Shown here: piece after piece, positions 13,701 through 59,000 of the stretch
Layout of the letters: every line of letters begins with the position of its first letter
Position numbering within the stretch: position 1 is the first letter of the stretch
DNA from: Saururus chinensis
Taxonomy: Eukaryota > Streptophyta > Magnoliopsida > Piperales > Saururaceae
Assembly: GCA_035235625.1 (NCBI GenBank)
Contig: CP141140.1
Coordinates: forward strand, 64,802,282 to 64,866,281
DNA length: 64,000 bases
Direction: 5' to 3'
Notes under the pieces: model-generated
The model's input: only the letters and a program-made list of their open reading frames with translations
Database searches by the model: none
What the model was told of the DNA's origin: nothing
Program-made: the position numbers and the translations under genes

Positions 13701-16700
13701 AATCCCCTCTGTATAGAAAAGGATAAATTTTAAGTTCTTTACAAAAAGTTGTTACTGAATGACCAAATAAATAAGAAAATTTTGTAACTACTTGCTGACA
13801 GAAAAGGATTGGGTCCACATTCATTTAAGGTCAGCAATTGTCGCTGAAGAAGAAGGAGAAGAAGCAAGACTTGGTGAGGAAAGGATTGTGCTCACTTCTA
13901 GTTGTAGTTATACTCAGTAAAAAATGCAGTTGGTAAGTTTATAACTAGGACATCTGATTTATTTTCAGTAGGTGGCTCATACGGCCTTAATTCTAATTGT
14001 AGTTACTCCTAATTGAATAAGTCAAAATCAGTCTTCCTAATTCCCTTTTCGTCTCCTCTCTGTCGACTACCTCCTCCTCTTTTCTCTTCCTTCAATCAGG
14101 TCACAGCTGAACCAGAGAGAAGCTTCATCCCCATTCGTTCCTAATACCCCTAAAACTCTTAGGCTTTATAACATTTAATATTCTTATAACACTACCTTTC
14201 ATACCGCCGCCGGCATCGCCCCATTCCAAGTGGTTGATGGACACACACCACCCACTATTCTTGCCTATGTTCCTCACCCACCTGCTGTGGATGAGGTAGA
14301 CCATCTTCTTTAGGACAGAGATGCCCTTTTGCGTCAGCGTAATCAGAATTTAGCTGCTTCCCAGAATCGTATAAAGCAGATTTACGATTTGCACCAAATT
14401 GATCACGAATTTCAGGTTTGACATCTCGTTTATGTCAATTTTTCCCCACATCAGCAGTCCTCTTTATATCAGCCTATGAATGCCAAGTTGGCCCACAGGT
14501 TTCATGGCCCTTACCGCAGGTTGATTCTGTGGCTTACTAGCTCCGGCTCCAGCTCCCATATGGTTTCCAAGTGCATCCAGTGTTTCATGTCTCTTAGCCT
14601 TCGGCATTTTGTGGGTGATCCCTCTCGAATTTTCTTGAAGTCCTCCGCTACCACTTCTATTACCGGCTGCTCCACCGTTAGTGCCTTTGGCTATCATTGA
14701 TACTCACCATGTTCATCTTTTTGATAGTCTTATTTCTGAGATCGTGGTTGCATGGCTTTGGACAATGCTACATGGCTTTTTGAGGATGAGTTCTATGGTC
14801 AGTTTCTTAATTTTGCACCTTGAGGCCAAGGCAGTAGCAAAATATGTGGATTGTTATGATCTTGCCATAGAATAGGATAGTTTGATTTATTTTAAGCATG
14901 GAAGACCGTATCAATACACATGAGAGTATCGATGATCATGGATACGGGTACACGCCGATGATACATTTGGTACGTGCCGAAATTGGTATAAACCCTTTTA
15001 TAAATATAAAAAAATATTATAACTAATAATATATCATTATAATACTTCTTTTAGAGCATAATAAGGCCATATAATGCCGTATCAACTGATACAGGTATTC
15101 TAAAATTAGTTCATTCAGAACCATATACTATTATGCTCTCCGTCCCATATAAATTATTGGTCATTCTTTCCTATATTAAATGTTTTAAAATTAGATTATT
15201 TTAAAAATAAATAATATGCTTAATATGAGTCTAAATTACATGTTTAAATAAATGTATATTTGTAGAGCACTATATGTAAAAAAAAATAATTATGTAAATT
15301 GTATGGACCTACCAGTAGGGATGCCACTCGGGTCGGGTTAATGGTAAACCCGACCCGACCCGACCCTAATGGGTCGGGTTTGGTTTTTAAAAATAACCCT
15401 AATGGGTCGGGTCAGGTTTTAGTGATCCAACCCGACCCGACCCGAATATAAATATAAAATTTATATTTTTTAATATTATTTTTTTAAAAAAAATTTAAAA
15501 AAATAATAAAAAATATATATATAAAATATTTTTTTAATCTATTCGGGTCAAACGGGTCGGGTCGGGTCTGGTTCGGGTTCGGGTCGGGTCGGGTTCGGGT
15601 TCGGGTCACAACTTTGTGATGTGGGTTCGGGTTTGGCAAAACCCAACCCGAACCTGACCCGGTGGCATCACTACCTACCAGTATTGATCTCATATAGTTT
15701 TAAAAATATTATTTTTAATATAACTAAAATTTAAACTTTCAAAGAAGTTGGGTTTGAATTGTATTTTTAGTTTTAAGAAAAAAAATTATTTAATTTTTTA
15801 AAAAAAAAACTAAAATTTTTAATTAAAAAATGATTTTTTAAATAAGTATCGATATGTATCGGCCGTATCGATACAATACGGCCGATATGTATCACAAAAT
15901 GGTGTGGGGGGAGTATCGCCCCCTGTACCATATCGGTATCGACAGATATGGACCTGTATCGGTCGATATGGCCTTCCATGATTTTAAGTAGGCTGATTCA
16001 TTTTGAGTAGGTGGCTCATAAGGCCTTAATTAGGCTTTTAGTTATGTTGAATTAGGAAATTAAAGCCCAGGCCCATAGCGCTTGGCATATTACGTAAGAG
16101 GCACTGACCTCCTAATTGGAATCAATCAGAAACAGTCTTCCTACTTTCCTTTTCCTCCCCTCCCAGTCGATTATCTCCTTCTCGCTTTCTCTCACTTCAA
16201 TCTGGTCACAGCTGAACCAGAGAGAAGCCCCATACCCCCTTAATTCCAACTTCCCGTAAAAATCTTAAGCTTTATAACAAATGTCTTCAAAAATATTTAT
16301 TTTAGTTAACATATAAGTTTGTAAAGAGTTTAGTGTCATAGTTCCATGAAAAGCAGACTGGTTTTTATTGTGCCAGCTTTGCAGTTGAAAATGACCTTAT
16401 CAATAGTTGTTTTTCAACCTTCATCTCATGAAGCTAATCCCAAGGTGTATGATAAAAATGATGATGTTGAGCCTTCATCTCCTTAAGTCACTCCTTATTA
16501 TTGGGTTTTGCCACGAATGACATCCCAGATGGATTTTGCAACATCACTTTGATTATAACAAGAGTTGAATAGTGATACAAAATCCAAGGTGCCGGCCCTA
16601 GATAATTGAGATAGAGATAATGATGGTGGTGGTGGTGGTGGTTGATGATGATGACCATGAGGGAGATGATGATCAGTTTTAGTTGAGTTTCAGTTATTAA

Positions 16701-26245: not shown

Positions 26246-27980
26246 TAATGTACCTATGCATAACTGCGTTAAAATTATTAAAACTTGTCAAAGAGTAAAT
26301 GGACCTATGCACCACATGACTTGCGCAACGGTTCCAACGAATAAGTTCTTCTTGGGCACTTTGCACAACGTATGCTCCATGGGACCCACGTCTATATTTT
26401 GTTCTACATATTATCTCTGAGAAAAATGCTTTATTGACATTAAGTTGTACGCACAAACATCATCCAAGAAGAGCTCACATTTATTTTAGGAGGGCTCACT
26501 ATTTTAGATCTCACTAATCAACGGTGCTTAAATGATAAAACATGTTCTTGACTTATAAAACTTAAACTTCAATGTCGCATCACTCTATCTCCAACCAAAT
26601 CCCAGTAATGGCCCAGGAAAATTATTAAGTGCTTTCAAAGTACCCTTTTAGAGTTGCTTCCACTTTATACGAGTGGCTTGTGTTAATTTAGAGTAAATCT
26701 CACATGGCACCCAATAGTGTTGTTAGGTGTGAGGACCATGCGTTCTATCCAACTAAAACTCAATTAGAACATTTTATTGCATAAATTTGTTAAATATACC
26801 ACTATCCTTTCTAATAGCACACCCAGCAAAGTTGGGTCTTTCTTCTCGATCCATCTTTTTTATCATTGCGAATTTCTTACTGTTCTAATTTGGCCTTTGG
26901 ATTATAATAAACTTTCTTTTAATCTATGTTTACTTTTCTCTTAAAATTCAGGTTTTCCTCTTCTATTAACTGTCAATATGTTTTAGCTCTTTGTTGCAGG
27001 GGCAATTCGCTTGGGTAGGGAGGTCATGTAGCTCTAAGCTTTGAGGATTTCATAGTTTATTTCACTGCGTGGAGAATTTGCCTGATGAGATTATCAAAAT
27101 GGTTGTTCCTAGTTTCTACTCCTTGATATTGGCCTTTTCAAACTATACATGAGGTAATCTATTGGCCTTTTGAGGCTATTCATGAGGCAATTTGGGAGCG
27201 AGAGCAAAGAAATGGATGTTAATTTTGTACCTTAGTTGCGATTAAGAAAACTTACAAAAAGTCAAAAAGTTGAAGATCAAATCGAACATCTTACATATTA
27301 TCCTTAGGACATATTTTTGCCCTCCCAGGGGTGCTTTGTATCTCTTAGACGTTTGTCTCTAAGGATAATTTAATTTATAGTATGCTATAGAAATACTTCT
27401 ACACAACACACTCAACAACCCCCTGGAAAAATTTAGTAAAAGATGAAGAAGAAAATATTCTTTTGTTTTTATAGAACATAGAAAAAATCCCGTTGAAGAA
27501 ACCTTGTTCCATTCAAATGGATGTGTCTGGCCATTAAGAGACATATTTGGTTAAGTGAAAATCAGACCTATTGTGGGTTAAAAGAAAACCAAAAGATTAT
27601 TCTAGAAAAAAAAAACATTTATCTTATCCAACCTAGCTAGATAGCGCGCGCGTGTGGGTTAACCCACATAGGTGTATGGATCCAACATGTATATCCCCCA
27701 CAAAATGGGGAAGCCTAACTAAAAAAGCAAAACTTAGGCCTTATACACCCACTCAAATTTCATCTTCCAAGTGAGGTGAGACTATTCATTCTCTCTTCAA
27801 CCAATTCACATGTGGGATTTCCATTCACATGAAAGTGGATTTGGGCTTTTAATACCCAACAAGCTCATTTATATTAACTTCTCATAAAATGGGCTTAGCC
27901 CATGTTTAATCTACTTTCCAACACGAGCTATATTTCGCAAAATTTTTTGGAAGACATGCTTTCTTGACGTGGGTGAGATT
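26246..27980. other. Intergenic, no gene recognised
   Basis: AT-rich with no conserved coding frame. A perfect 16-bp palindrome TGTGGGTTAACCCACA lies at about 27,653-27,668 next to a short GC alternation. Nothing else is identifiable. Confidence 0.45.
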
Positions 27981-30419
27981 CATGGAAGGTTGTATCGGCT
28001 GACACAAGTGCATATCGGCTGATATAGTATTGTAAGGGGGGTAGTACACCCCCTACAAAAAAATTGATTCATATCAGTCGTACTAGTTGTATTAGATTGA
28101 TATGGCAGATATGTAACGATACTAAATTAATTAATTTTTTATTTTAAAAATAACTTTTTACCAAAAATAAAAAAAATCCTAAAAATAAACACAATTCAAA
28201 CCCAACCTTTTTGAATGTTTAAAGCACACAATGTTTTTGTTATATTAAAATATTTAAAAAAAATTATATGAGATCAATACAGGTGGGTTCATACAATTTA
28301 CATAATTTTTTTTCTAAATATTGTTCCACAATTATGCATTTACTATGACGGTCGCCATAAAATATATCATATAATAATATATTCCCATTTTACATGCATA
28401 ATTATCACGTGCATGACGAACGTGGTGGCCGTCGACACGGAACAAAACACACACATTTATCATCATACATTTACTTATGAAATTAACGGTGTCATTGCAC
28501 AACAAAACATATATCATAGATAGATATTGATTTAATGGATTCAACATAACATAATAAAACTACATGTGCCAAGGATCATTGTGCATAGAGCTAGTAGTTA
28601 TACAAAGTTTTTAATCTCCAGGCATATAGTGCCTTTAAACATCAATTACACAAATAATTACATAGTTTTCTCTTGTAACAAATAGATAATTCATTTTGAA
28701 ATCTTTTCCTCTTTCACTTCCGCCTTTGCTACATAATCCAAGGGCGGGTGAGTATATTTATACTTAGTAGGTTGAGCTAAAATCCAAAGGAATGCTGAGC
28801 AAAAATCCTTGAAAAGCAATTATAATCTTTTTGCATCATATCTTATCAAAGAGTAAACCATTCAGAAAACAATTCAATTCAGAAATAGATCCAATAACCA
28901 TGATACCTAACAACCTACCCCGCACTCATAGGGCAATGAAGACCCATTAGGATAGGAGCTTTTTCATAACGGTCCACACCTATGCGTGTTAGTTGTCAAT
29001 TACATCAAAACATAATGATAGTTTCTAGTTCTTTATCCAAGAAACTACCCACATAGTGCATGAAAATCATTTCCAAGATATATCTTTTCAGGAAACAAAG
29101 CTCATATGCATACCCAAGCAAAATCTTTCAAAAGAATTAACTTTAATGAGCAGAGCATGGGTCTAGAGTTTAAAGCCCCCTACCTTAACCTTGGGTATTT
29201 ATTTTCATAACTATAGAGGTCTCAGACAACAAAAATGACCTACAATGGCATCTGACAAGCTCGATTAAGTAAAGAAGCCTCTTAAACTACTTGATTTGGA
29301 CTAAAAATGGAAGAAAAGAAGTTTGAGAAGTGTGAAAATTGGAAAACAACAAAAATCAAAATACATATGGCGCTATATATAGGTGCAGGCGGGTGATTCT
29401 GTGTGCCATGCATCACGCGGAGAGTCGCACGTCACACACGTAGCACCTGTGCTGCCCAGGACCCAACCCATGGAGCTACAAGCCAACATGTAGCTCCGCA
29501 TGTCACGATCACGCCTACATGATGGCACAAGCCTAATCCCATGTGATGCGGGCCTGACGCATAGGCCGGCCGAGCTTCATGCGGCTTGCCCATGTTAGCC
29601 AATTTTTTTTGTTTTTTTCAAATCTAAAATTTTAAAATGCGATATATTTCCAACCATAGGTTGTAATCGCACATTCTTAGTACAAATGGATTCATATTGA
29701 CAAGTGTGACACCTTGTGTTCCGATTACACTTAACCCAAAAGGGTTAGGGGTAATTATATAATTTTAGATGAATTTTAGGGGGTTTCAAAAGATAGAATT
29801 CCCATATTTGGTTAGAGCTTAAAATAACAAGTGTAACAAACCAAAGAACGAGCGAAACAGAAGCCAAGAGCAAAAGTTATAGACTCGGGAAATGTGCCAT
29901 ATGGGCAGGACCCACTTTGAAAGAGTGAGATAACCTACCCATGTGGGATCTAGTTTTGAAGGGCTCGTCAATACAAGTCCATCGGTACCAAGAACGCACG
30001 ATTCCAACTTCGGGATAAGAAGTTATCGCGTTTTGAAATTGGAATTGTATTTGAATAAAATAATAATACAATATTTCAGCTAGCCGAGCCAAGCCGCTGA
30101 GCTGCTAATGTGCAGCGCAATCGCAGCCATTCGCATGATGCGGGTCCCGCATGGGATGCGTGGTGGACGCACACATCAGGTGCGCCAACCACTTCGGCGG
30201 TCCATTCATATTGCACCACGTGGCACGAGCATATGCGCGCGTATCCTAACTTCTGTCGTACACTCGCACAACCTTATCTTATAAATATTCATTTCTGTTT
30301 ATTCTTCCGAAAGAGTTTATAGAGTCGTTTTGAGTCCGTTTCTTCATTTCAAAAAATGTTCTTAGCTAATTCGAGGGTGTTTCATGCAATGGAAGTGTCC
30401 ATTTTTTGAGTTACTAACC

Positions 30420-30575
30420 CTATATTGGGGAAACACCCCTGGGTAAGGGGAGGTTCTGTCCGCCGCCTATGGGCGTGGAAAGGGTAAAGTGTCTCTGGGA
30501 AAGGGGAGGTTTTGTTCGCCGCCTATGGGCAAGGGGAGGTTTTGTCCGCCGCCTACGGGCGTGGGAAGGGTAAAG
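30420..30575 (+). repeat. Minisatellite array in LTR family 1, first part
   Basis: About three units of ~56 bp (or shorter variants) with the core AAGGGGAGGTTNTGTCCGCC, then GCCTACGGGCGTG, then GGGTAAAGTGTCTCC. The array is cut by the solo LTR that begins at 30,576 and resumes at 33,231 and again at 34,735. Confidence 0.85.
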
Positions 30576-32651
30576 TGTAACGACCGCAAATTTTCGGTAT
30601 GATTTCTTGCCACTAATAAAGTTATTTGATAAGTTTTTAATTATTTTAAATTATTTATAGGCAGATATTTGGAGAGTGTTTATATGTGTTTGATAGAGCT
30701 TGGTGAGATGAGCGTAACGAACCTAACACACGAAAAGGAGGTCACGAGCAAAAGTTAGACCTCAAGAAACATGCCACATGGGCGGGACCCACTTTCGAAG
30801 TATGAGATAACCTACCCATGTGTAGTCTAGTTTCGAAGGGCTTGTCAATATGAGTCCATCGGTACCAAGAACGCGTGATTCCGACTTTGAGGTATAAATA
30901 CATTGTATTTTAAAGTTTTGAAAACATAAAAAGGAAAATATTAAATTTGTTGCCACATGGCAGCGCGCGAGCCGCACGTGCACCACATGGTGATGCATAA
31001 GAAAACTGACACACATCTTGATGTGCATCAGTCATGCGTGAGATACGTGTTTCATGTGTGACGCGTGTCTGACACGCGTTCAACCTCAATCCTTTATATA
31101 AACCCGTTCTGTTTCATTTTGAAATTCATTCTGAAACTTCTTTTCTTCGTCTCTCACTTGTTTTAAGTCCATTTTCTTCCGTTCAAAAAGCGTTCTTAGC
31201 TAATTCGATGGTGTTCTACGCAATGGAAGCATCCATTCCTCAAGCTAATGACCCTATATAGGGGAAACACCGTAGGGTAAGGGGAGGTTTTGTCCGTTGC
31301 CTACGCGCGCAAGAAGGGTAAAGTGTCTTAAGGGAAGGGGAGATTCTATCCGTCGCCTACGGGCATGTTGTGAGAAAAGTGTACCAGGCCAAGGGGAGAT
31401 TTTGTCCGTAGCCTATGGGTACGGAAAAAGAAAAGTGTTTTGAGCAAGGGGAGGTTTTGTCCGTAGCCTATGGACAGATAAAAAGAGTTTCTGGAGTCGT
31501 TCTGAGCTAGTTTTCTTCCGTTTAAGAAGCGTTCTTACCTAAATAAAACGTGTTGGACCTCCAGAACCCTAGGAGTAGACATCCAATTTCATGATGTCTG
31601 GTTTATCGGCTTTAGACTTGTGCAAAAAGCGAGGTAGGACTTTTATCCTTTCTTAAGGCATGATTATAAACTTTGGTTGTGTTTTGAACTTATTATTTAT
31701 ATGACTATCGCATGTTATGCATTAGAGATTACTTTCAAGTTATGATTTATGATTTCTGCATAAATATTCGATCTGTCAAATGGTTAATCGTTGAGATATA
31801 ATATAATTTATATATCGTATGCTATTATGTATATTCGATTAGTCAAATGATTTGCCGTTGGAAGTGGATATGTTTTATATACTATATGTTTTACGATTGC
31901 CTCATATATGATAGTTTAATCAAATGATTATCTGTGGATTTTGATATAAATTATACACGTTGGAGCGTGTGAGATAGAGACAAACTAGCTTCACCACTAT
32001 TTTCATTGCGAATCAATACAGTATGCTTAAAAGACGGTTTTAGAGGACTCGTCCTTTTTGAAAAGAGGATTCTCAATATTATTTTTGAAAAGACATATAA
32101 GCATGGTGATTGAGTCACTGAAGCGGGACAAAGAAGGGGTAGCTGTCTCATTGGAATGAGCGACCAACCTTGCCTTTGTAGTTGTTGATAGTGACGCTCT
32201 CATGTCTTGTAGAGGCGGAGCTAGGGTTTTCAAAAGGATAAACATTAAGATAGAATATTTTAAAAGAAAACAACCCTTTTTGGAGTCTGGGAACTCTAGA
32301 AGATTTTGATGATGAGTCTGGGACTTAAGAGTGTTTTGGTTGTCTGGAGCTATTATTTGGCTTCGTTGACTAGTTAAGGGCACAACTAATCCGGTTTGGT
32401 ATCGGATGTACTGTACCTATTTTAGCCTGGTGAGCCCCTATCGAAGGGCAAGACCCCTGATTAGCCCCTAACGAAGGGCACCTATCAAGGCTACGCGCGC
32501 TAGGGTAGAGAGTATCATGGGAAGACTCTCTACTCTCTAGATCCTGACACCCCATGAGCACGGGTGGCTCTTATATCCACAAGCATGAAATGTTTTGAGA
32601 TGATATGTGGAGGAGTAAGAGGTTGTTGTTTTGTACCTGCAGAGCTAATTC

Positions 32652-32706
<55 letters not shown>

Positions 32707-33230
32707 TGGGACATTTGTAGTGAGTCGTGAGAGCAGCTTGCAAAACCCTAGTAGCATCTTCGATACATAGGAAGAAGCTCTAGGGGTGGTTTTGGGTGAC
32801 AGAGGCACACCCTATTTTCATGAAAAATATTATATACGATATGTGATGTGAAACTGCCATGTGTTTATTCATGCCTGATTGTATAAACTCCCCTACTGAG
32901 TATTTTAAAATGCTCACGCCCCCCAGACTTTGCAGGATTCGACGAAGCTTAGTGTGCGGGTAGATGGGCCTACTCCGAGTTTTATCTATATGATTTCGAG
33001 GATTTTAATCGCACCAAAACAAATAAGAACTCTCTTTATTAGTTTTCCCTTTTGTGTAGAACTCTCTTTATTAATTTTCTCTTGTGTGTTTGTACACAGA
33101 ATGTAGTTCCTAGGGATATTACTATTTTATTATTGCATAAGGCGAGTGGCTCCCATCACGTGCTTGAGTAAACTCCGAGATTTTTGTAAAAAGAAATTTT
33201 ATATACTTTCAAAAATCCCGGGGCGTGACA
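30576..33230 (+). mobile_element. Solo LTR inserted in the minisatellite, TSD TAAAG
   Basis: Starts TGTAACGACCGCAAATTTTC and ends TCCCGGGGCGTGACA, flanked by a perfect 5-bp duplication TAAAG (30,571-30,575 and 33,231-33,235). At 2,655 bp it contains its own array of AGGGGAGGTTTTGTCCG units (about 31,265-31,480), the block ACCAAGAACGCGTGATTCC at 30,864, and a (TA)n tract (32,658-32,702). No gag or pol. The ends match Tekay/Del-type gypsy LTRs in style; the lineage is inferred. Confidence 0.88.
32658..32702. repeat. (TA)n microsatellite
   Basis: About 22 uninterrupted TA units inside the solo LTR at 30,576-33,230. The length suggests a recently active, probably polymorphic tract. Open frames crossing it on both strands encode only alternating Ile-Tyr and are artefacts. 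Confidence 0.95.
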
Positions 33231-33294
33231 TAAAGTGTCTCCGGGCAAGGGGAGGTTATGTTCGCCGCCTACAGGCGCGGGAAGGGTAAAGTAT

Positions 33295-34734
33295 TGATGC
33301 ACTGAAATAATGTTTAATAAAATGTTTTAAAATTTCAAATTATAATCCTATTTTGTGTTAAGTCATTGCTTATTTAGGCTATTTATGTTTTGAATAGGTT
33401 AGCTGGACCTTAATTGAGTTTACATGTATAAACAGGCTTCAACAGGATCCAACTGGAAGATGAAGTGAAGCCCAACTACCCAAAGTTATTTAAAAGTCAA
33501 GAATGAGCTCTTAATGGTCTAAACATACATGGAATGGTCGAACACAACCTTGTGGACCCGTTGGATTTGAGATTTGCATCAAGAGAACTACATTAAGAAA
33601 GAAGCTGATTCGGACAGATTGATACAGCCATAGTATTTTGACCATATCTTTCTCTGTATAATTTAGATTAATACGATTCTGATGGAATTGGAAAGAAGAC
33701 TTCCGTGGATACATTTGTTATTTGAGGAAGAAATTCTAAATTATAAATATTTATGGGTCGAATTTGGCATGCAATCAGACAGCTAGTAAACTAACCCGAG
33801 GCCAGCACATGAAGAATATTTTTATTGATTTTGATACATACACATAAGGAAATACAATGAGGCTGATTGGATATTTAAAGGAAGATTCAAAGATACTTAT
33901 TTGCTAAATAAATATGGATTTATTTAATTTATTTAGTATCTAATCATTGCCAAAGAAGCAACCAATCAGGCAATCAATTAGGATGCAATATAGAGATATG
34001 ATTTCACTTTCCTCTTTGAAGCAACCTCTTCTATTCCTATAAGTAGAGGGGTGGACGTGATAGATGAATGATCCCCTCCTCTTTGGAGCTCTCTTCTCCT
34101 ATTTTTCTTCTCTTCTTTTGTATTTTTGTTTTTAGTTTTATTGTCATGACTTTCTAAGCTCTTAAGCTAAGGCTAGAGGTGATTTGTAACAATCTAATGG
34201 AGTTCTATTCATGTTTCATCAATTATTTCAAGTAAGTATTGTTTATTTGAAGTGATGTTTATTTTATATTGTTCTCCTTCTTGTTTCTTTGTGATTTGGA
34301 TACATAAGATGCTTGAAGGCTCTCCTTTTTTATCTTTTGTGATTTGGATACATAGAAATCTTTAAGAGACAATTCTTTTTATCCTTCATCTATCCAAAGT
34401 ATTTTCTATCTTTAATTTCAATTTTAATGTTCATATCTTCCGGTTAGATAGAATCTTTATTTGGTTCTAACTGAGATAACATGATACATGAAGAACATCA
34501 TTAGATGTTATAATGATCCTTAATGCCTTAGTGTTTTCTCATCTTGATTTCTTGACTCCTTATTGCCTCAATACTCTTCTACTCTTTCTTTCTTAATTTT
34601 TTCTTCCTCTCTTTCTTCGTAACTATTTTTTGTTGCACAAGGCTTTCCCTGTGGATCGACCTTGTCTACTACAATTGGCAAGTAAAAAAATCTGAATTTG
34701 ACTTCTTCATAGTCTTGGTTCAGACGTAACAACA
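33295..34734 (+). mobile_element. Solo LTR (Athila/Tat-like) inserted in the minisatellite
   Basis: Starts TGATGCACTGAAATAATG and ends CAGACGTAACAACA, flanked by AGTAT (33,290-33,294) and AGTGT (34,735-34,739). AGTGT is the ancestral sequence in every other array unit, so AGTAT is a one-base decay. Near the 3' end it has TTTCCCTGTGGATCGACCTT, a motif family seen at the end of Athila/Tat LTRs. At 1,440 bp it is unrelated in sequence to its neighbours. No coding region. Confidence 0.75.
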
Positions 34735-35060
34735 AGTGTCTCCGGGAAAGGGGAGGTTTTGTCTACTACCTACTGGCGTGTGAAGGGTAAAGTGTCTCCT
34801 AGCAAGGGGAGGTTCTGTCCGCTACCTGTAAGCACGAGAAGGGTGAAGTGTCTCCGGGTAAGGGGAGGTTATATCTGCCACCTACGGGTGCGAAAAGCAA
34901 GAAGTATCTGTGGGTAAGGGGAGATTTTGTCTATCGCCTACGGGCGTGTTGTGAGAAAAGTATCCCGAGTCAAGGGGAGGTTCTCTAAGTAGCTTACGAG
35001 CACGGAAAGAAAAAAGTATTCCGGAGATAGAGGAGGTTATGCCTGCCATCTTCAGACCTA
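34735..35060 (+). repeat. Minisatellite array in LTR family 1, last part
   Basis: About six degenerate ~55-bp units with GGGAGGTT, CTACGGGCGTG and GGGTAAAGTGTCTCC. They decay toward the right, where units lose the GTAAAGTGT phase. Together with 30,420-30,575 and 33,231-33,294 this is one array split by two LTR insertions. Confidence 0.85.
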
Positions 35061-35171
35061 AAAGGGAAGACGCTATGAGGAAATGAGTAACTCCGAACGT
35101 TGCCACTTCCGGAACTGCAGGGAAGTACACTTTTTTGACCTTCTAATTCAATATGATTTATATGAATGCAC

Positions 35172-35200
35172 ATCTTAATTAGTAATATACTAATTAAGAT
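35172..35200. repeat. 12-bp perfect inverted repeat in LTR family 1
   Basis: Arms ATCTTAATTAGT and ACTAATTAAGAT around a 5-base loop. The same palindrome, with one mismatch and a longer loop, occurs at 62,941-62,975 at the equivalent place (just after the minisatellite) in the related LTR. That suggests it is a conserved LTR feature rather than chance. Confidence 0.75.
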
Positions 35201-36299
35201 ATATAATTTTCTATGATATGATATATGCTAATATGTTCCTATTTGATCTACTTTGATATATTCTGTGGTGATCCGAATCACACTAAAATGCTCTATTGTG
35301 ATATGATATACTTCGATATGATCTGATATGATCAGTATGGTCGGATGAAATCTGATATTATCTAATAGGATTTGATAAGATCCAACATGCTCTATTGTAT
35401 GTTTTGTTCCGCTCTATGATAGAGTGGGATGTGTGGTTTTGTTAGTATTTTGCTCACCTATGTGAGATGTGTATTTCGCTAATTTATTGGCTTCCGTTTG
35501 ACTCCGATGATTTATAAGATTTCTGTCTGATTCCGAATAAATTATTCTGATATAAAGTCTACGTATTTTATTGTATATGATTTTATGATGTCTGATGAAT
35601 GTAGGCAGAACTATGTTAGGATCCGATCGTATTGGAATAATATTATGGATGGTATCCAATATGTACGTAGGCAACCAACAACAAGGCAATGTTGGCCCGA
35701 TCCAAATTAGTTATAAAATTAGGTTTGTTTTGAACTATGCGCAACGAAATGTTAAAGCTCCGTAGTGTGGTGGAAGAACGTTATGACTCTCGCACTCAGA
35801 GTCTGCAACTCCTGGTCAATCCGATTTAAATTTTTTTACTTATTTATTATACTCCGATTCTATCTTCCGAACTAACCCTGGTCCGGGTCGGGTTTTCTGG
35901 GTCGCGACATTACAACAAGCCCTTCAAAAGAAGACCCCACATAGGGGGGTGTTATCATGCACTTTTCAAGTGGGTCTTGCCTATGTGGCATGCTTCCCGA
36001 GGGCATAACTTATGATCCCAATGTCTGATTCAAGTGGTTCAAGACCCATTATGCTCATATTCCATAGTTCTATCAATCTTTATAAGAACTTACATAATAA
36101 CAATTTTAACTAATTAAAATCATTCTAAAAACTCTAGCATTAGCTTTATAAGAGGCAGAAAAAACACATTGAAAATTCAAGGTCATTACATTTACTTACA
36201 CATCTAACTTTGGGGCTTCTCCATAATCTTCATGTGATTCATATTAAGTATCTTATTTGGTTCCAAAATGAACTAATTTTAGAGCACTTAATATAGGAT

Positions 36300-36569
36300 C
36301 AGGGGCAGATCCACATTAAAGATAAGGGGGTCAGTTGACCCCCATGGCTTGTGAGATAATTATGATTTTTACCTATGCCCATTAAATGACCTATACCCAA
36401 AATTACCTTGACTACTTATTAATTGGCTTATTTGTAGGAGGCTATGTTAGTTATAATCACATATATTTTTAATTTTTTCAATAGCATCTTTATTATAAAT
36501 TTTAGTAATTTATTTAAAAAAATAATTATATATATAGACCCCCTTGATTAAAATTCCTACATTCAATTG
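36300..36569. mobile_element. Small hAT-like MITE in the right part of copy B
   Basis: Starts CAGGGGCAGATCC, a typical hAT terminus, and is flanked by a perfect 8-bp duplication TATAGGAT (36,292-36,299 and 36,570-36,577). Internal arms AAGGGGGTCA and AGACCCCCTTGATT are partly complementary. The right terminus (CATTCAATTG) is poorly conserved against the left one. Copy A has uninterrupted sequence at this point (AATATAGGA equivalent), supporting insertion. Confidence 0.65.
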
Positions 36570-36809
36570 TATAGGATAGAGGGAGTAATAATATTTTTTT
36601 TGGTATTATTACTCTATATTCAATCATATCTTTTTGTGTTTTACTATGCATACTTACAACATTTTTTCATGTGTATCAAAGGGTTCGCACCCGTTTTGGC
36701 ATGTACTAAGTGCATCATTAGCGCTTATTGAATGTATCATCAGCGTGTACCTATATATATGGTCATCAATACTATCATATGTATCAATACGGCCTTCCAT
36801 GGTGAGATA

Positions 36810-56016: not shown

Positions 56017-59000
56017 TGTTACACCCTGAATTTTCTCAAATTCACTTTTGAATTAAAACCTAGTGGAAACAAATTTTTTATAAAAATTCATTTGTTAATC
56101 CTTCGACAAATATGTCAATATAAGATGTGAGTCACTTATTTTCGAACATAAGGATAATCATTTGTTATGTCTTTAAATATATATAAATCATAATAAAATC
56201 ATAGCCAAATCTCAAAGGGTCTTCCTGTGTACATACCAATCAACATAATACACACAACTATAAGTAATTGACACTCTCGTGCCTTTGCCTTATAAATTAC
56301 ATGTATCAACTATAATTTACTAGTAAGTTCAGAAAATTTCTACATAGATCTAAGATCTTCATGCCTTTCCTTAGCACAAGTATCTCACTCGCTATTCCTT
56401 TGAAGAACATGCATCAACAACGGATGTGAGTATATGAATATGCCCAGTAGGATGGCTAAACAAGAACTATAATACTGTAAGAATTACATTTTAATTACAT
56501 TCCCATTGAAAGAATAGCATATAAATTCAATGTCAATAGCATCATACATCACTCATCAAGAACATAATAATTAAGCATGCAACATCAATTTTTTCCAACA
56601 TAATGTGACTCTCACTCAGAAGTCTCCAACTTTTTAAGTGAAAGTCAAAGGTTCTCTATGACATAGTAATCATAATCCTAGAGTATAGTCTTGCCTCACG
56701 AGACTACAAATTATATGCATTCTGACTTCATATATTTTAAAGTTTGCCCACCCCATCCACGTTATAAAGCTTGGGCCCATAGAGGCTTATGGACCTATGT
56801 GGTTAAAGTTTCAACTTTTATGATCATCGAAACCTCATGTATTGCGTTGTGCGAGACCAGTCATCTTTTAATGCTCTAGTCCATTCGAACACGACTCTTT
56901 GGCCAAGAAAGTGGTTTTATATAACTACTATTTTTAGAGAGCCAAAATACTTTGGTCATTTTTCATACCAACCCCCTTCCATCGATATGGCTAAAGACTT
57001 AACTTGAGGAGTCAAGGCAGAAAATGTTCTTCTAACCTCAAAAGTCGAAAAATATTAGTCTTGGGGTACGATCCATTACAAGGATATTCATATACAAAAG
57101 TATATACATCATCACACATCATTGCAACTTTATGTATAAAATAATATGCTATTAAAACTCTCAATAATAGCCTAACATTCATAACCATTTTTTTCTAAAA
57201 TACCCACTGACATATTGTCTGTGGACTCATTGATGTATCAGCTGAGTCACTGATGATCATCGGTAACTCGTCGATGTGTCAAACCCCCTTTTGATAGTTG
57301 AATGAAATATGAAATCAGTCTCATCAACGTCTTCATTGACATGTTGACATCACTGTCACTGATGTATTATCGGTTCACCGACACTGTTCCATCTTCTTCT
57401 TCCTTTCACATAGGTAGCATCATTGACACATCAATGACTCTACCGATCAACAGAAAGTTGCAGAACTTTTATATAATCATCAAAATAACTTACTCTCATG
57501 AAAATTAAATATATAATCTATTAGATTCATCTATCAATTATCACATAAGGACAATTAGAGGAAGTTTTTCTACTTAACAGAAGTTATTCATACGAAATTT
57601 ACAATAATCAAGAATAACAAAGCATCTGATTCAATCATGAATCAAATTCAACCATAACATGCATATTACTCTATCAACATTTATCAAACATGCATTTCTT
57701 GCTAGAGTATTACAATTTATGGTTAACAATCTAACCTCTAAACAAAATAAAGAAGAGATCTCTACAAATTCGTTTATGCTCCCTTGACATGCCCTAAACC
57801 GCTGCTCCTCAAAGTCGGAGAGTTCGTACCATTTGAGTCAAAGATTCTTCAAATGCATTTATAAGGATGCCTAAAAATTAAATTTTGGTGTGTAAATAAC
57901 TCTAAAAACCATCAGAACCCGCTTTGATGACAGTTTCACAGCCATCGGTAAGTTGGTTCCCATGTCATCGACAAGTCAAATCTTGCCAACAGTAAGATTA
58001 TGGAGCCTCTACTCTGGGCCACTTCTCTTGATGCAGCCCGGTGATAGAGGATGGAGCCTCCTCAATCTCCGGGCCGTTTCTCTCTCTTCGGGGCACGAGA
58101 GTGACAGATAGAGCATCCTCTTGCCCTGAGCCGTTCCCCACTTTTAGGGATGCCAACTAAAGGAATAGACTATGTCATTTCATAGATCACCCTTAAATTA
58201 GCTAGGAATGCCTTTTAAATGGACGAAAACATACTCAAAACGAGTCGAAAAACTCTCCAGACCCTTGAACTGGAAAATTGAATGCTATTTATAGAGAAAA
58301 TAAATAGACATGAGGCTAACACATGGCAGATAGGACTGACACGTGTCAGTCTATCCAACACATCACCAATCCTATCCGATACATCATCAATCCTATCCAC
58401 TACATCATCAATTCTTTCTGCTACGTCAACAGTCTGATCGCTACGTCATCGGTCCTATCCGACATGTCATTATTTTATTCAAATAATATCCCTACTTCAA
58501 AATGCGATAACTTCCTACCCCCCCAAAGTTGGAATCACGCTTTCTTAGTACCGATGGACTTGTATCGACGAGCCCTTCAAAACAGGGCCACATATGGGTA
58601 GGTTATCCCGCACTTTTTAAGTAGGTCATGCCCATGTGGCACACTTATCAAGGTCATACTTTTTGCTTCCAACCTCCATTTTGCGTATTCTTTGATTTGT
58701 TATGCCTAATACTTTGAGCTCTAACCATATGTCAAATTCTATCCCTTGAAACCCTCTAACCTTATCCAAAAATTATAGAATCACCCCTAACCCCTCGGGT
58801 TAGGCGTAATCAGAAAATGGGTCGTTACATCCATCAACATGTCAAATATCACCACTAGAGGATATATTGTTTAATTAGTAAGTTCATCAACACCTTGAAT
58901 GTTGCTAACAGTGAAAATGCTATTTCACTGATGAGTTTCATCGATGTGTTGATTGTTCACCGACGAAACTTTGTTATGCAAAATACATCATAATTTCCTT

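Follow-up and report, generated by a model that had tools for sequence, protein, structure and literature searches.

A stack of five transposable elements, nested four levels deep, was found in the 64,000-bp stretch of the Saururus chinensis genome analysed here (the window; C1:64802282–64866281). Containment supports an order of arrival, as read from the sequence, in which a hAT-like element (copy B) came first, followed by a reversed LTR (L2) within it, a family 1 LTR (L3) within L2, and two further LTRs side by side within L3 (4a and 4b). A preliminary description of this DNA had reported a five-level nest with readable order; the order is supported by empty-site relatives for the layers inside copy B, but the depth is four, five being the number of elements. 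We consider it very probable (about 95%) that ordinary insertions of transposons built the stack in a nuclear genome of plant-like type, with the hAT-like element first, the LTRs nested into it and their interiors lost, and with a 270-bp element, missing from the preliminary description, inserted independently. The features are listed below with their coordinates in the window.

27981–36801, no strand assigned: level 1, hAT-like non-autonomous element (copy B); terminal repeats and 8-bp duplication; 29 relatives
28344–36190, minus strand: level 2, reversed putative solo LTR (L2); duplication TTTAC; empty site in hAT relatives
29705–35914, plus strand: level 3, family 1 putative solo LTR (L3); duplication ACAAG; empty site in L2 relatives and in the 58.5-kb LTR
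30576–33230, plus strand: level 4a, single LTR, 2655 bp; duplication TAAAG; array in phase in L074 and L075
33295–34734, plus strand: level 4b, putative solo LTR, 1440 bp; duplication AGTAT/AGTGT; 29 relatives
36300–36569, no strand assigned: sixth insertion, 270-bp hAT/MITE-like element; 8-bp duplication TATAGGAT; gap in relatives
14897–15980, minus strand: hAT-like copy A, paralogue; about 24 bp shorter beside the L2 site
58469–58841, minus strand: 58.5-kb LTR, paralogue; conserved core with the L3 site empty; exact 5-bp overlap at 58568–58572

In the scenario that we favour, the non-autonomous hAT-like element B would have inserted first. An LTR retrotransposon (later L2) would have entered it in reverse; a second one (later L3) would have landed in an LTR of this element, and the 56-bp tandem array of L3 would have taken up a further two (later 4a and 4b). 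Each retrotransposon would then have lost its interior, most likely when its two LTRs recombined with each other, so that only one LTR and the flanking duplication were left. The 270-bp hAT/MITE-like element would have entered copy B independently.

Direct reading of the sequence confirmed the previously reported coordinates of the element ends and of all five duplications. Copy B, with a body of 691 bp without its inserts, runs CATGGAAGG...CCTTCCATG between GTGAGATT and GTGAGATA (8-bp duplication with one mismatch) and has short terminal inverted repeats, with CATGGAAGG at both ends. An 8-bp duplication combined with short terminal inverted repeats is a hallmark of hAT elements, and points to the assignment of B to this group. 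L2 (body 1632 bp) has TTTAC on both sides and, on its own strand, starts with TGTAATGACC and ends with GTCATA, so that its terminal CA reads TA (ends TG...TA). L3 (TGTGACACC...TTACA; body 2105 bp) lies between copies of ACAAG and contains a 56-bp tandem array; 4a (TGTAACGACC...GTGACA) has TAAAG on both sides; and 4b (TGATGCAC...TAACAACA) is flanked by AGTAT and AGTGT, a duplication with one mismatch. TG...CA ends and a 5-bp duplication were found for these LTRs, except for the TA end of L2 and the mismatch beside 4b. Spacing-matched random pairs drawn in the window agreed at 5/5 positions in 0.16% of the draws and at 4/5 or more in 2.0%, and spacing-matched random 8-mers agreed at 7/8 or more in 0.05%; as these rates are so low, the five duplications at the element ends are not due to chance. 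Each inner element carries its own target duplication inside the interrupted outer element, and for the layers inside copy B the outer elements were found uninterrupted in relatives, both being marks of a nested stack.

Each LTR layer and the left half of the hAT-like element were searched with about 100 bp of surroundings against the whole genome (516,460,831 bases in 11 contigs), and the best 40 places per search were scored and treated as samples. Among the best 40 places for 4b, the 39 non-self places lay within query positions 90–1543 (element 101–1540), and beyond these only the window's own array was matched. For the other searches, again among the best 40 places, the matches of the hAT left half ended by 465 (boundary 463/464), stopping at 28342–28345 of the window; those of L2 lay within 97–1461 (element part 101–1461); and those of 4a, separate array units aside, lay within 82–2761 (element 101–2755). 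For the 5′ part of L3, the matches among the best 40 places started at 95 or later (element from 101) and went no further than 977, the insert beginning after 971; the exceptions were three reverse-strand matches, including one in the window, to a shared LTR core. For the 3′ part, they started at 99 or later and ended by 1293 (L3 ends at 1280), the exceptions among the best 40 being separate shared-core matches beyond 1279 and one locus on C2 (C2:14900770–14901410). The right junction between the hAT-like element and L2 was covered in the fetched loci: in the 29 hAT loci the right-half matches began from 36184–36190 on, and the matches of the L2 relatives L070 and L071 extend as far as 36190, where L2 ends, and then stop.

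If a layer is an insertion, its two flanks are expected to meet directly in relatives of the host and to share a stretch as long as the duplication. For L2 in copy B, the overlap was exactly 5 in 18 of 29 hAT relatives; among the other 11, four gave 29, −2, 7, and −174, and seven were not measurable. Four of these 11 (L040, L041, L058, and L067) form together with copy A a visible subtype that is shorter beside the L2 site. Copy A, which had been put forward as a gap-free empty site for this layer, closes only approximately on account of the missing 24 bp or so, and was rejected as an exact empty site, since it does not match base for base; other hAT copies in the genome do close exactly. The site of L3 in L2 was compared in ten L2-family loci, i.e., the four best of the search and six chosen for having matches that extended to the site. 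Five of them were exact at 5 (L071, L079, L081, L082, and L083), L070 and L078 gave 9 and 7, and L072, L073, and L080 were not measurable. The 58.5-kb LTR, named earlier as the continuous counterpart of the second layer, also closes exactly (5), but its likeness to L2 is confined to the conserved core; outside the core it is nearer to family 1 (76.5% over 349 bp).

The sites of 4a and 4b had been closed on minisatellite units, and this was borne out by two uninterrupted L3 relatives, L074 (C5) and L075 (C3), which carry the 56-bp array through both sites with no insert and with continuous units mostly of 56 bp. When all flank-unit pairings were tabulated, a phase of 5 modulo 56 was found for 4a in 64/72 unit pairings in L074 and 26/42 in L075, and for 4b in 56/72 and 31/42, respectively; the remaining pairings were one base off or, at a 63-bp unit of L074, 7–8 off. 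The 56-bp tandem array was seen in the LTRs of both 4a (31255–31530) and L3 (30380–35130), which probably have had it in common for a long time.

If one or more of the junctions belonged to a composite repeat amplified as a unit, containment would give no insertion order here. Recurrence of the same chimeric joins as a repeat family elsewhere in the genome, which the preliminary description had named as evidence against the nest, was looked for and was not seen in the 40 best places of each search; there, the C2 locus apart, no match ran more than 19 bp past a junction. This locus, which matches across the right L3/L2 junction by 97 bp, is the one point in favor of a composite repeat. Its join, however, lies about 9 bp away, and the LTR that serves as host there is reversed and shows, at its own 5′ end, 73% identity to family 1 over 270 bp; because of this displaced join and the family 1-like reversed host, the locus is a separate insertion. 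It was also the sole one of 39 non-self places to cross the right L3/L2 junction by more than 8 bp (200-bp query, best 40). At the left L3 junction and at both ends of 4b, none of 39 places among the best 40 of the respective searches crossed by more than 11 bp; likewise, 0 of 39 crossed by more than 2 bp at the left hAT/L2 junction or by more than 4 bp at the left end of L2, and the largest crossing at 4a among the best 40 was 19 bp. A composite repeat is thus regarded as extremely improbable. Much the same holds for a misjoining of repeats during assembly: the nest is known from the assembled sequence, but misjoins would not produce a correctly sized duplication at each end of every element, and they would not let the sites in relatives close exactly at 5 and 8 bp. 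Stepwise insertion is preferred over both. In the fetched sequence around the C2 locus (L086:1–970; C2:14900600–14902300), the end of a family 1-type LTR runs into a reversed LTR belonging to the same superfamily. One junction was seen, and this join lies about 9 bp from the L3 position used in the window.

L2, L3, 4a, and 4b are single LTRs, most likely formed by LTR–LTR recombination, and a Ty3/gypsy-type lineage is suspected for them. The 29 relatives of 4b comprised 15 single LTRs with duplications (5/5 in 11, 4/5 in four), nine LTRs followed by a shared interior start, three (L033, L037, and L038) preceded by a shared interior end, one LTR in an irregular pair (L015), and one incomplete copy (L036). 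Three pairs in the 4b family differ by 3.4, 5.4, and 5.7% (49/1443, 78/1443, and 81/1429 sites). The first of these, L012/L015 (C3:23001893–23009434), is the irregular one: both LTRs are preceded by an identical run of 12 bases, and between the two lies a 133-bp piece of an LTR start; a 3.8-kb piece of its interior contains a gag-protease-like frame with an aspartyl protease domain. L3-type starts were found in pairs 5.2–5.7 kb apart, a spacing that suggests two-LTR copies; a 3.3-kb interior piece of one such pair contained no frame longer than 131 aa, and the single L3-type interior frame tested gave no Pfam match. The spacing of an L2-type pair (C8:4644733 and 4651590) likewise suggests a two-LTR relative. 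For 4a, the duplication beside the relative L076 agrees at four of five positions, and the best 40 places showed no copy with two LTRs. The single LTRs might have arisen otherwise, e.g., by conversion or if forms with one LTR had integrated, and this would agree with solo formation being seen as a product only and with the result for two-LTR copies of 4a. Such an origin is nevertheless very unlikely, as duplications flank the single LTRs, the 4b family also has interior-bearing copies, and recombination between LTRs is what is presumed in published work on wheat (PMC4290129).

The sixth insertion lies inside the right half of copy B and is flanked twice by TATAGGAT (36292–36299 and 36570–36577). 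It was absent from copy A and from 14 of 15 aligned relatives (of 29), the remaining one, L068, having other extra sequence there. At its site, the overlap was exactly 8 in 9/30 hAT loci, and the site was seen by eye to be empty in L077; the other 21 loci gave another value in eight cases (−18 in four) and were not measurable in 13, the measurement being disturbed by a unit that is repeated beside the site. Ten near-full-length matches to the family of this element start at 36293–36300, and most of them stop 4–6 bp before the right end at 36569; the terminal repeats are weak. Since the element sits directly in copy B, its order relative to the LTRs is not readable from containment.

For copy B's own arrival, the basis consists only of the terminal repeats and the 8-bp duplication, and the best 40 places for each flank included no relative with this site empty. 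Nor did either flank show a host transposon beneath copy B that would add a true fifth level; the left-flank repeat (27425–27923) mostly stops 57 bp short of copy B, and the right flank is matched only from about 37208 on (best 40). Read in reverse, 27425–27923 begins like an LTR (TGTTGGAAAG), and 39 other places among the best 40 match it at 69–84%. In one locus (L049), two hAT-like matches of like orientation were seen near each other.

The points at which 4a and 4b entered the array differ by no more than 3 bp in their position within the unit. Two LTRs of family 1 type, in the window and at C2:14900770, lie in the same LTR core at sites about 10 bp apart or less and in the same relative orientation. 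That the 56-bp array and the conserved LTR core of the superfamily are preferred landing sites is nonetheless doubtful in the extreme. By chance, two insertions would fall this close (3 bp) in a 56-bp unit with a probability of about 12% (7/56), and a hot spot in the array was not supported. An L3-type array match was present within 150 bp of the ends in 0/29 other 4b copies (E 1e-5) and at the insertion point in 0/7 other 4a-type copies (L002–L008, upstream side), nor was one seen by eye in the short flanks of L076. A hot spot in the LTR core was also rejected, one near miss among 39 places being too little.

4b carries 16 private substitutions in 1440 bp (1.1%), and its nearest relative is at 6.8%. 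As it ranks 17th of 30 copies by private share, 4b is not unusually young among the sampled copies, and alleles lacking it are possible but, judging from this rank, not to be expected. Among the best 40 places, the nearest full-span relative of 4a shows 80% identity, with the first 220 bp of 4a reaching 88%, and relatives of the host L3 show 85–86% in the 3′ part and 75–77% over most of the 5′ part; the distance to the nearest relative is no measure of insertion age.

Nesting, solo LTRs, and the reading of order from nesting are treated as standard in the literature consulted (PMC7251063, PMC2773423, PMC4290129). The account of wheat chromosome 3B gives 30,199 nested insertions with up to 8 layers (PMC4290129), and that of a 22-Mb region of maize describes nested elements with the oldest at the base (PMC2773423). 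Like these stacks, the Saururus nest consists of elements within elements, with the oldest at the base and the order given by containment; unlike them, it is shallower (four levels), its LTR layers are single LTRs, and its lowest layer is a DNA transposon. The single LTRs resemble solo LTRs of plant LTR retrotransposons in their TG...CA ends, 5-bp duplications, and, for 4b, interior-bearing kin in the genome, but differ in that L3 and 4a carry the 56-bp array. Copy B and the 270-bp element share 8-bp duplications with hAT-like non-autonomous elements and MITEs, as does copy B the short terminal inverted repeats, whereas the weak terminal repeats of the 270-bp element depart from this pattern. 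The nest is correct and well supported, yet it is an ordinary feature of such genomes and leaves existing knowledge of transposons unchanged. Another nest, with different joins, was seen on C11 (L008; C11:19157407–19160629), where a 4a-type LTR start lies beside sequence like that at 39.5 kb of the window and 4b-type LTR sequence.
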